64,000 bases of DNA from Halorubellus sp. JP-L1 (GTDB lineage: Archaea; Halobacteriota; Halobacteria; Halobacteriales; Natrialbaceae), in NCBI RefSeq assembly GCF_011440375.1, contig NZ_JAAOIR010000001.1:310001-374000 (forward strand), read 5' to 3'. Every line of letters starts with the position of its first letter. The stretch's first letter is position 1. The translations under genes and the position numbers were made by a program. Positions 19,153 through 53,807 of the stretch are shown here, piece by piece. The notes beneath the pieces were generated by a model. The model saw only the letters and a program-made list of their open reading frames with translations. It ran no database searches and was not told the origin of the DNA.

Positions 19153-19301
19153 GCTGACTCCACCTCGAGAGCGAGCGTCCGTACCGACTGCTCTTCGAGA
19201 GCGGGCGTCCGTACTGACTCGACCCCGAGAGCGGGCGTCCGTACTGACTCGACCCCGAGAGCGGGCGTCCGTACTGACTCGACCCCGAGAGTGGGCGTCA
19301 T
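19149..19301 (-). CDS. Bridging reading frame of decapeptide repeats between srp19 and gar1
   Basis: A 50-codon frame starts at ATG 19301, whose bases overlap the srp19 stop (ATGA), and ends at TGA 19151-19149, overlapping the gar1 ATG (ATGA again). It encodes MTPTLGVESVR, then two further units of TPALGVESVR, the variants TPALEEQSVR and TLALEVESA. The last codons for Glu-Val-Glu provide GAGGTGGAG, the gar1 ribosome-binding site. The frame stays open through more than four copies of a 30-bp repeat. It is missed by length cut-offs. Whether a stable peptide accumulates is unknown; passing ribosomes from srp19 to gar1 is the simplest inferred role. Confidence 0.5.
   Translation of the reverse strand: MTPTLGVESVRTPALGVESVRTPALGVESVRTPALEEQSVRTLALEVESA
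19167..19300. repeat. 30-bp tandem repeat, about 4.5 copies, between srp19 and gar1
   Basis: Units begin at 19167, 19197, 19227, 19257 and 19287 (last one partial). The middle three are identical and the first is diverged. On the plus strand a unit reads GAGAGCGGGCGTCCGTACTG followed by ACTCGACCCC. There are no spacers, so this is not a CRISPR array. Because 30 is divisible by three, copy number can vary without changing the reading frame of the bridging ORF. Confidence 0.95.
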
Positions 19302-20935: not shown

Positions 20936-22030
20936 ATGCGAGTGGGCGCAACCGCGACCGCGTACTCGACGGCCCTCTTCGCCGGCCTCCTCGCCACGGT
21001 CGCCGGCGCCGCCACCGTCGGGCCCGTCACCATCCCCTACGGAACCGTCGCGAAGGCGCTCCTGAACGCCACGCCCGTCCCCGTCGGCGTCACGCTCCAG
21101 GGCGGAATTGACGTCGCCCTCGCTCACCCCTTCGCGTTCGACGTCGACAGGACCCAGCAACTCATCGTCGTCGGCGTCCGCGGCCCGCGCATCGTCCTCG
21201 CAGCGATCGTCGGGTTCGCGCTCGCCGCCGCCGGCACCGTCATGCAGGGGTTCTTCCGGAACCCGATGGCGGACCCGAGCATCGTCGGCGTCTCCTCCGG
21301 CGCCGCCCTCGGCGCCGTCGCCGCCATCACCGCACCAGCGGCCGTCACCGCAGTCACCGCGCCACTCGGCCTCCCCGCCGGCGTCGGCATCCAGACCGCC
21401 GCGTTCGTCGGCGCGATCGTCGCCGCCTTCCTCGTGTACGCGATCGCGACCGAGCGCGGCCGGACGCCCGTCGCCACCCTCCTGCTCGCGGGCGTCGCCA
21501 TCCAGACGTTCCTCGGCGCAGTCGTCTCCTTCCTCCTCATCTACTCCGGCCAGAGCATCCGCCGCGCGATCTACTGGCTCATGGGCGACCTCAACAACGC
21601 CGCCTGGGGCGACGTCGCCGTCGCCGCACCCGTCGTGCTCGTGCTCTTCGCCGCACTCCTCCCGTTCTCCCGGGACCTGAACGTCCTCCTGCTCGGCGAG
21701 GAGGACGCACGGACGCTCGGCATCGAGGTCGAACGCACCAAGCGCGTGCTGCTCGCGCTCGGGAGCGTCGTCACCGCCGCCGCCGTCGCCGTCGCCGGCA
21801 TCATCGGGTTCGTCGGCCTCGTCGTCCCGCACGTCGTCCGCCTCGTCGTCGGGCCCGACCACCGCGTCCTCCTGCCGACGAGCGCACTCGCCGGCGCGAT
21901 CTTCCTCGTCGCCACCGACACCCTCGCGCGCTCGACCGCCGCCGCCCTCCCCGTCGGCGTCGTCACCGCGGCCGTCGGCGCCCCGTTCTTCCTCTTCCTC
22001 CTCCGTCGCAGGGAGGTGCACGAACTATGA
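20936..22030 (+). CDS. btuC: Cobalamin-type ABC importer permease (FecCD/BtuC family)
   Basis: 364 residues, ATG 20936. Around ten membrane segments and the BtuC/FecCD blocks are present: [46 protein letters not shown], then [31 protein letters not shown] (cytoplasmic coupling region) and [21 protein letters not shown]. It forms the homodimeric channel for substrate delivered by the divergently encoded binding protein. Its stop TGA is overlapped by the ATG of a 19-codon frame that leads on toward btuD. Confidence 0.87.
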
Positions 22031-22086
22031 CCTGCGCCCCGACAGCACCGTTGCGCACCGCCGACCTGGAGGTGCAGTCGGTATGA
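22027..22086 (+). CDS. Bridging micro-ORF 1 between btuC and btuD
   Basis: 19 codons, [19 protein letters not shown]. The ATG overlaps the btuC stop (ATGA, 22027-22030) and its own TGA overlaps the ATG of the next micro-ORF (22083-22086). The second half, LRTADLEV, resembles the start of an ABC ATPase such as the true BtuD N-terminus IRVEDLTV, suggesting it derives from an earlier copy of the btuD start. The Leu-Glu-Val codons give CTGGAGGTG, a strong ribosome-binding site for the next frame. Translation is inferred. Confidence 0.45.
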
Positions 22087-22125
22087 TCCGCACCGCCGAC
22101 CTGGAGGTGCAGTCGGTATGATCCG
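22056..22125. repeat. 35-bp perfect tandem duplication of the btuD translation start region
   Basis: Two identical 35-bp units, 22056-22090 and 22091-22125, each begin CACCGCCGACCTGGAGGTGC and end with the ATG plus ATCCG. Each therefore carries the GGAGGTG site and a start codon. The unit length is one less than a multiple of three, so the start codon of copy 1 reads in frame to a stop that overlaps the start codon of copy 2. Confidence 0.97.
22083..22121 (+). CDS. Bridging micro-ORF 2 upstream of btuD
   Basis: 12 codons, [12 protein letters not shown], starting at the ATG of the first duplicated unit and ending with TGA 22119-22121, which overlaps the btuD ATG (22118). Its first nine residues look like an ABC-ATPase N-terminus (compare MIRVEDLTV of BtuD). 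It exists because the btuD start region is duplicated. GGAGGTG inside its codons serves the btuD start. Translation is inferred. Confidence 0.45.
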   Translation: MIRTADLEVQSV

Positions 22126-50462: not shown

Positions 50463-51728
50463 CTACGCCTGCCGCGGGTCGAGTGCGTCCCGGAGGCCGT
50501 CGCCGAGTGCGCCGAACGCCATGACGGTGAGCGCGAGGAACACGGTGGGAACGACGGGCGTCCACCAGACCTGCGGGAACGCGGCCTGGAGGCCGTTGAA
50601 GCCGTTCGCGATGGTCTCGCCCCAGGATTCGTTCATGATCCTGTTCATGCCCATATACGCGACGGCGGTGTGGAGGAGGATGAGGAGCGGGATCATGCGC
50701 GTCATCGCGGTGACGACGGTATTGGAGACGTTCGGGAGGATGTGCTCGCGGATGACGTACCAGTCGCTCGCGCCGGCGTTCTTCGCGGCGAGCACGAACT
50801 GGTCCTCGCGGCGCTGCAAGGTCTCGCTGCGCACGAGGCGCGCGATGCCGCCCCACGAGAACAGGCCGAAGACGAGGACGAACAGGAACAGCGACCGCCC
50901 CCAGAACGCCAGCAGGAGGTACGCGACGAACGCGGGCACGGTCTGTTGGGCGTCGACGTACCCCATGAGGACGGTGTCGACGCGCCCGCGGAAGTAGCCC
51001 GCGACGGTGCCGACGGCGGTGGCGAGCGGGACGATGAACAGCGACGTGACGAACGCGAGCTCGACGACGACGCGCATCCCCGAGATCGTGAGCGCGGTGA
51101 GGGGCTTCCCGAGCGCGTTCGTCCCCAGCGGGTACCTGAGGGTGCCGTGGCAGCGCTCGCCTGCCGCGGAGCCGACGCAGTCGGAGACGTAGTAGTTTAT
51201 CGGCGTGCTCGTGAACGCGGGTGGCTGGCTCTGGACGGCCGTGTCGATCGTGGGCGGGTAGAGGACTGGGCCGACGACGCCGAGGACGAACACGGCCGCG
51301 AGGAAGAACAGGGACCCGGTCGCGAATCGGTCACGGCGGAGGCGCTCCCAGTAGAACCGGGTGAGTCGCGGCTGTTTCGCGAGCGGGACGACCGCGAAGC
51401 ACGCGAACGCGAGGATCGACGCTAGGAACAGCCACTCGATGCCCCTGACGTCCCAGTACAGGGGGAGGAGCCGCTGGCCGAACAGCGTGGTGGTTGGGCC
51501 GATACCCTCGAACAGCGGTTGCTTCGGGGGCATCTCGAAGTAGTCGTAGAGGACGCCAGCCGAGAGGACGGCGACGCCGACGAGGAAGACGAGCGTGCGC
51601 GCGCGAAGCGACCGCCTGGACGGTTCGATCGCGTCCCAGTCCACGGTCTCGAACTCGGCGATCGCGGTCGCTTCCGTCGCCGAATCAGGGGGCGTCCCCG
51701 TCGTCGCGTGGTCGTCGACGTCAGTCAT
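50463..51728 (-). CDS. Dipeptide/oligopeptide ABC transporter permease (DppC type)
   Basis: 421 residues from ATG 51728. An acidic cytoplasmic N-terminus (~45 residues) leads to two extra membrane segments (~55-78, ~115-135), then the DppC/OppC core with SDCVGSAAGERCHGTLRYPLGTNALGKPLTALTISGMRVVVELAF and the EAA loop VLAAKNAGASDWYVIREHILPNVSNTVV. The GTNALGKP and EAA elements are diagnostic of importer permeases of the Dpp/Opp class. It is divergent from the DppB-type gene (52003) with a ~275-bp gap holding an inverted repeat. No binding protein or ATPases are adjacent. The long N-terminal extension is unusual for DppC (~300 residues). Confidence 0.85.
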   Translation of the reverse strand: MTDVDDHATTGTPPDSATEATAIAEFETVDWDAIEPSRRSLRARTLVFLVGVAVLSAGVLYDYFEMPPKQPLFEGIGPTTTLFGQRLLPLYWDVRGIEWLFLASILAFACFAVVPLAKQPRLTRFYWERLRRDRFATGSLFFLAAVFVLGVVGPVLYPPTIDTAVQSQPPAFTSTPINYYVSDCVGSAAGERCHGTLRYPLGTNALGKPLTALTISGMRVVVELAFVTSLFIVPLATAVGTVAGYFRGRVDTVLMGYVDAQQTVPAFVAYLLLAFWGRSLFLFVLVFGLFSWGGIARLVRSETLQRREDQFVLAAKNAGASDWYVIREHILPNVSNTVVTAMTRMIPLLILLHTAVAYMGMNRIMNESWGETIANGFNGLQAAFPQVWWTPVVPTVFLALTVMAFGALGDGLRDALDPRQA

Positions 51729-51772: not shown

Positions 51773-51791
51773 TCAGTGTGTCAAACACTGA
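51773..51791. promoter_or_regulatory. Palindromic operator candidate between dppC and dppB
   Basis: TCAGTGT (51773-51779) and ACACTGA (51785-51791) are perfect 7-bp inverted arms around GTCAA. The site lies between the divergent permease genes, about 45 nt before the DppC start and 17 nt before the TATA box of the dppB unit, so one dimeric regulator could control both. The regulator is unknown. Confidence 0.5.
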
Positions 51792-51807: not shown

Positions 51808-51815
51808 GTATATGG
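51808..51815 (+). promoter_or_regulatory. TATA box of the dppB unit
   Basis: GTATATGG at 51808-51815 is centred about 29 nt before ATG 51840. Transcription should therefore begin within a few bases of that ATG, which is the first codon of the micro-ORF ladder and not of dppB itself. Confidence 0.55.
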
Positions 51816-51839: not shown

Positions 51840-51890
51840 ATGCAGTGGGGCGAGTGCGTCCGACCTCGGACCGAGGTGCTTTCACGGTGA
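51840..51890 (+). CDS. First rung of the micro-ORF ladder before dppB
   Basis: 16 codons, MQWGECVRPRTEVLSR, from ATG 51840 to TGA 51888-51890. It is correctly placed for leaderless initiation from the TATA box at 51808. Its TGA overlaps the GTG of the next rung (GTGA 51887-51890). GAGGTG (codons Glu-Val) lies 8 nt before that GTG. It was probably the original leader before the 29-bp unit was multiplied. Translation is inferred. Confidence 0.45.
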   Translation: MQWGECVRPRTEVLSR

Positions 51891-51997
51891 CCCGCCGGAC
51901 CGAGGTGCTTTCACGGTGACCCGCCGGACCGAGGTGCTTTCACGGTGACCCGCCGGACCGAGGTGCTTTCACGGTGACCCGCCGGACCGAGGTGCTT
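51868..51997. repeat. 29-bp tandem repeat, four full copies and a partial, before dppB
   Basis: Units 51868-51896, 51897-51925, 51926-51954 and 51955-51983 are identical; 51984-51997 is the start of a fifth, ending where the dppB start region begins. Each unit begins GGACCGAGGTGCTTTCACGG and continues with TGACCCGCC, so each carries GAGGTG plus a GTG start codon overlapping a TGA stop. There are no spacers, so it is not a CRISPR array. 29 is one less than a multiple of three. Confidence 0.97.
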
Positions 51998-52006
51998 CCG
52001 TCGTGA
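51887..52006 (+). CDS. Four further micro-ORFs in series, ending on the dppB start codon
   Basis: Frames 51887-51919, 51916-51948 and 51945-51977 each encode MTRRTEVLSR; 51974-52006 encodes [10 protein letters not shown]. Every one begins with GTG and ends with a TGA that overlaps the following GTG by the four bases GTGA. The last TGA (52004-52006) overlaps the dppB GTG at 52003. Each contains its own GAGGTG site for the next frame. Together with the frame at 51840 they form a five-step ladder leading ribosomes to dppB. Expression is inferred from arrangement only. Confidence 0.45.
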
Positions 52007-52992
52007 ATCGACAGTACGTCGCGCGCCGCGCCATGTTCGGCGTCGTCTCGTTCTACGCCGTGCTGTCCCTCGCGTTCTTCTTCATGGCGCTCGCGCCGGA
52101 CCCGAACAAGGCCCTGCTGGCGTACCAGGGCGGGAGCGAGGAACAGATCCAGACGCTCCTCGCCGCGAAGGGGTACGACGAACCGCTCCTGGAGCGCTAC
52201 GTCGGGTACCTCTGGGACATAACGACGCTGGACTGGGGACAGACGACGGGGCGCTTCGGTCGCGGCGGCCCGGAAGTTCTGGACGTGCTCGCGAAACACC
52301 TCCCGTACACGCTCGTCTACGTCGTTCCGGCGGTCGTCGTCGGCTTCGCCGGCGGCATCGGCCTGGGCGTCTACGCCGCAATCAAGAAAGGCGGGTACGT
52401 CGACCGAGTGGTCCAGTCGGTCGGGTACTTCGGGTTCGGCATCCCGAACTTCTTCTTTGCGGAGCTCGCGCTGTTCGCGCTCGAGGAGCAGTACGGCATC
52501 CTCGACTTCACGATCGGTCGGCAGAGCTCGCGGGTCTACACGCCCGGCGAGCTCTTCAATATCTGGACGGTGGACCACCTCCTCCAGTTCGCGGTCGTCG
52601 CCGCTATCCTCGCGGTCTCGCTCGTCGCCGGACAGCTCCGGTACGCGCGCTCGGAGTGCCTGGAGTACGTCTCCGCTGACTTCGTGAAGCTCGCGCGAGC
52701 GAAGGGCGCGAGCGAGTACCGCGTGATGGCCCACGTCGCTCGGAACGCCGCGCTGCCGCTGATGGCGATGTTCCTCGCGGACCTCGTGACGGTGCTCGTC
52801 GTGCACGTGTTCGTCCTCGAGTTCGTGTTCAACGTCCCCGGCATCGGCCAGATGGGTATCGTCGCCGTCAAGCAGCGCGACCTCCCGTTCGTGATGGGGA
52901 TCACGATCGTCATCGCGGGGTTCGGCGTCGTCGCGAACTTCCTCCAGGACGTCGGCCTCGGCGCGATCGATCCCCGAACCGAGACGAACTGA
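52003..52992 (+). CDS. Dipeptide/oligopeptide ABC transporter permease (DppB type)
   Basis: 329 residues from GTG 52003 ([20 protein letters not shown]). Six membrane segments with DppB/OppB features: the first helix then a long outside loop ([30 protein letters not shown]), [27 protein letters not shown], and the EAA loop [30 protein letters not shown]. It should pair with the divergently encoded DppC-type permease. The start is preceded by a five-step ladder of micro-ORFs linked by GTGA overlaps, with GAGGTG 8 nt upstream of the start codon. Confidence 0.86.
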
Positions 52993-53635: not shown

Positions 53636-53738
53636 GGACGCGCGACGCCGGCACTCCTACCGACGTCCCCGTCCGTCACGACGCCGACGCCGAAGACCCT
53701 GAGCCGTGGCGCTCGCGACCGACGCCAGCGACATCACC

Positions 53739-53807
53739 GAGTCGTCCGCGACGGATCCCACGAGCCGTCCGCGACGGATCCCACGAGTCGTCCACGACGG
53801 TCCCGTC
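53739..53807. repeat. 23-bp tandem repeat upstream of sucC
   Basis: GAGTCGTCCGCGACGGATCC plus CAC at 53739-53761 is repeated at 53762-53784 (one change) and again, degenerate, at 53785-53807. It lies in the 245-bp gap between rpl10e and sucC, about 70 nt before the sucC start. It contains no start codon overlap. Function unknown. Confidence 0.9.

Follow-up and report, generated by a model that had tools for sequence, protein, structure and literature searches.

A frame-safe ladder of GTGA-coupled micro-ORFs in front of a haloarchaeal dppB gene, most likely a local expansion of a conserved single micro-ORF

In haloarchaea, 5′ leaders are mostly absent, and the way in which translation is controlled is therefore a question. 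In Halorubellus sp. JP-L1, five micro-ORFs of 16, 10, 10, 10, and 10 codons overlap in a chain 5′ of the GTG start of a dppB-like permease gene. Where does this chain come from, and what might it do for the gene? We analyzed it in the window, i.e., the whole 64,000-nucleotide stretch of DNA containing the locus.

The ladder extends from 51840 to 52006 on the + strand. Micro-ORF 1 (51840..51890, 16 codons) opens on ATG 51840, at the predicted transcript 5′ end, and closes on TGA 51888–51890. Micro-ORFs 2 (51887..51919), 3 (51916..51948), and 4 (51945..51977) start on GTG 51887, 51916, and 51945, respectively, and their ten codons each read MTRRTEVLSR. Micro-ORF 5 (51974..52006, 10 codons, encoding a variant of this peptide) starts on GTG 51974, and its TGA (52004–52006) overlaps the dppB start codon. 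GTGA is the junction type at all five steps, the final one lying on the dppB GTG at 52003. Tandem Repeats Finder (TRF) delimits a repeat of 29-bp period at 51867..51997 (+ strand), with 4.5 copies at 100% identity and the arrangement GAGGTG-8 nt-GTGA in each copy. Every GTG start, including that of dppB, is preceded 8 nt upstream by GAGGTG.

The dppB-like gene itself (52003..52992, + strand, Pfam PF00528) uses the first possible in-frame start, and its N-terminus, MNxxxVARRA, is kept in Halorubellus salinus GX3, the closest relative compared and a member of the same genus. Divergently from it, a dppC-like permease gene (50463..51728, − strand) encodes a DppC/OppC-type partner with the Pfam domains BPD_transp_1 and OppC_N; dppB and dppC are likewise divergent in many relatives. 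A TATA-like element of the dppB promoter (GGTATATGG, TATAT, 51809..51813, + strand) is centered ~29 nt upstream of ATG 51840, and this distance is identical and ungapped in H. salinus and in one more distant relative. By this spacing, the predicted transcript start would fall on the start codon of the small ORF. A preliminary description of this DNA had claimed the five-step GTGA ladder with its coordinates, a 29-bp repeat carrying GAGGTG and GTG in each copy, and a leaderless-type promoter spacing at ATG 51840. Direct reading and the recomputed chain bear out the first claim, the perfect TRF copies the second, and the equal TATA-to-ATG distance in relatives the third. The ladder itself is a confirmed observation. 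The interpretation offered in that description is partly supported: the promoter spacing, the coupling geometry, and the remark on the repeat length hold, while five successive reinitiations and a tuning of dppB by copy number stay hypothetical.

Also between the divergent genes, an inverted repeat, TCAGTGT-gtcaa-ACACTGA (51773..51791, not assigned to a strand), is a candidate operator. At about this position between dppC and dppB, TCAAA-N-CGTTTGAC occurs in several relatives. The location of the array in a divergent intergenic region could suggest that a regulator acting between the two genes binds to the repeats and that the frames are incidental. We regard this as highly improbable: the TATA element is followed, not preceded, by the array, the 29-bp unit is not conserved in relatives, and the motif that is conserved, TCAAA, sits upstream of TATA instead.

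How much does the chain signify by itself? With the ATG and the dppB GTGA kept in place, shuffling the repeat unit left 15% of arrays chained to dppB, and shuffling the entire leader left 33%. Given the GTGA start, the chain is not rare, and alone it is a weak signal. RNA folding of the ladder gave no structure signal (z about 0). The excess over chance, as judged by sequence comparison, is the conservation of a coupled micro-ORF in relatives.

The orthologous place in H. salinus reads TATA-28 nt-ATG-19 codons-GTGA-dppB, that is, one frame and no repeat. Deleting four units from the window in silico likewise leaves one frame, of 16 codons, with the junction unchanged. The 29-bp unit, searched with up to 3 mismatches, is absent elsewhere in its own genome and from 40 relatives. 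Since H. salinus is devoid of the repeat, since the collapsed array gives one frame, and since the unit is found at one place, the single micro-ORF most likely came first, and the ladder arose from it by later, lineage-specific, and local multiplication. The expansion looks recent and frame-safe. Two other dppB copies of the same genome are preceded by similar micro-ORFs, of 20 (locus L032) and 12 codons (L082).

Across Halobacteria, divergent dppB genes have such a micro-ORF far more often than chance predicts. A TATA-spaced micro-ORF ending −4 to +8 nt from dppB was found at 25 of 56 divergent-type dppB loci, against 2.75 expected from shuffles, although shared ancestry among the loci inflates this count. 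The 56 loci include the paralogs L032 and L033, counted as divergent type though they have no dppC match in the stretch examined; the ladder of the window was left out of the 25, since the frame at its head does not reach dppB directly. Under a strict −4/−1 overlap, 21 of 55 divergent loci qualify, versus 3.35 expected. As a control, first genes in sampled stretches of two Halorubellus genomes, delimited with a crude gene caller, gave 16 of 334 (6.8 expected; Fisher p about 8e-14 against the 25/56 of dppB). On the dppB tree, the micro-ORF label needs about 12 changes, at least nine of them forced. In the closest clades, nearly all members possess a coupled micro-ORF, some with weaker TATA matches. 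SD-like matches before the coupled starts score 4.27, versus 3.55 in shuffles (sd 0.17).

The peptides diverge, as illustrated by MQRAFDDHALRARERRRAP, MGRATRRARGQP, and MTETRDDAEGHP, while spacing and overlap are retained: the linkage is conserved and the peptide is not. Four loci of one related genus (L043, L044, L005, and L081) depart from this sequence-free pattern, with a 12-codon micro-ORF before dppB encoding a near-identical peptide, M[LV]RQGHGSVVRP. Other divergent dppB genes lack a clear micro-ORF, and three (L023, L035, and L042) apparently have a leaderless ATG as their own start. For first genes in general, TATA-spaced micro-ORFs with strict coupling are not in excess in the ladder's own genome (6/256 vs. 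4.8 expected) and are slightly so in H. salinus (4/78 vs. 0.8).

The preliminary description had remarked that the repeat length falls one short of a multiple of three. This proved meaningful when we simulated arrays of 0–8 copies with periods of 24–35: periods of 3n−1 chain at every copy number, those of 3n+1 at even numbers only, and those of 3n never. From 0 to 8 units of the actual ladder, the chain stays whole. As 29 = 3 × 10 − 1 and each unit carries one GTGA, coupling is intact whatever the copy number, so that neither gain nor loss of copies should silence dppB.

This rule invites a further claim, that a fraction of ribosomes is lost at each junction and that the number of units, changed by slippage, sets dppB output in the population. 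Perfect copies do suggest a recent, possibly variable expansion, and variation would stay viable because only 3n−1 periods chain at all copy numbers. Against this, the sole other Halorubellus genome compared is without the array, and reinitiation at each junction may be near complete. We consider the claim unlikely. In its full form, a frame-proof translational rheostat in which the number of micro-ORF repeats determines the number of ribosomes arriving at dppB, with heritable and reversible variation in peptide uptake as the result, on a device conserved across haloarchaea, it is improbable.

Alternatively, the array could be a neutral minisatellite: part of the leader was multiplied by slippage, and the units, having no function of their own, persist since coupling is unbroken. 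The array occurs in its own genome only and not in the 40 relatives, that genome has other non-3n tandem repeats, and the 15% of shuffled arrays noted above would chain too. Taken alone, this explanation leaves the conserved single micro-ORF underneath unexplained; GAGGTG and GTGA are also whole in all copies, though recency accounts for that. We give it somewhat less than an even chance.

Tandem repeats of 3n−1 period show no general excess in the 664 kb sampled (13 of 3n−1, 16 of 3n+1, and 123 of 3n), and no further ladder was found in 400 kb outside the window. Within the window, a 35-bp tandem repeat (22027–22121) between a FecCD-type ABC permease gene and its ATPase gene creates two bridging micro-ORFs with ATGA junctions; the orthologous pair in H. 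salinus (L121) has one bridging micro-ORF. Micro-ORFs bridging co-directional genes are in no general excess (7 where 6.1 are expected, and 3 where 3.1 are), and this case is for that reason suggestive only. A 23-bp tandem repeat in three copies lies between a ribosomal L16/L10e-like gene and sucC (53738–53804), and a 30-bp repeat in 4.9 copies with 89% matches at 19154–19299.

Comparable arrangements are known in mycobacteria, where the TGA of a leaderless small ORF shares bases with the RTG of the gene that follows, forming RTGA (Shell et al. 2015; PMC4633059). The dppB loci share this coupling, with five GTGA junctions here and one in H. salinus, and, as in mycobacteria, conserve the linkage and not the peptide; the leaderless start is deduced here from spacing. 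The mycobacterial small ORFs occur one per gene at many genes, whereas in this archaeon and its relatives they are concentrated on divergent dppB, with five in the window. A second parallel is offered by MIRU elements, in which the ORF of the unit is joined to the next gene by a −4 overlap (PMC12548453) and whose 77- and 53-bp units (PMC4213456) are 3n−1, as is the 29-bp unit. Both the coupling to neighbors and the period are thus shared. The make-up of MIRU arrays varies between strains (PMC12548453; PMC4213456). Unlike MIRUs, which are scattered and presumed mobile, the 29-bp unit (up to 3 mismatches) sits at one locus and seemingly derives from the local leader. On the array search and the unit search, we rejected a dispersed repeat family.

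Closer to Halorubellus, PMC4983044 describes Haloferax volcanii uORFs in long 5′ leaders, of 15–31 codons, before larger genes that include several ABC transporter genes, among them dppA15; its section on them describes neither stop-start coupling nor a tandem array, unlike the ladder. Haloarchaeal termination–reinitiation has been studied on full-length gene pairs joined at a single junction, and here it would concern a chain of micro-ORFs. These pairs share the overlap geometry and SD-like motifs of the ladder and suggest the likely mechanism. In the limited set of papers searched, we found no archaeal report of such a ladder and no haloarchaeal report of a coupled micro-ORF associated with dppB.

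We favor, as probable, a leaderless start on the micro-ORF followed by termination–reinitiation to dppB, a conserved device that in the window was amplified into a frame-safe ladder. The 5′ end of the dppB mRNA would lie at or near ATG 51840, as the TATA spacing indicates. A ribosome would load at this leaderless AUG, in keeping with the 72% of leaderless transcripts given for Haloferax volcanii in PMC4983044, and read a micro-ORF without conserved sequence. It would terminate at a TGA that overlaps the following start codon as GTGA, and reinitiation there would be aided by GAGGTG, 8 nt before that start. A single such step would hand the ribosome to dppB in relatives. In the genome studied here, amplification of a 29-bp piece around the end of the micro-ORF would have added four GTGA junctions, making five in all before dppB. 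Reinitiation at these junctions is postulated from work on Haloferax volcanii, where overlapping genes are strictly coupled (PMC6728339) and coupling is lost beyond about 20 nt (PMC10666635). The effect of the extra units on dppB output is most likely mild attenuation or none, and they may be neutral.

In one reporter study, cited in PMC4983044, leaderless GUG starts amounted to 2.6% of AUG. The micro-ORF at dppB, conserved in geometry and free of conserved sequence, may be a means of beginning translation of a GTG gene that has no classical leader. The ladder provides a natural series for the efficiency of reinitiation per junction, and a natural example of a repeat length that preserves frame whatever the copy number.
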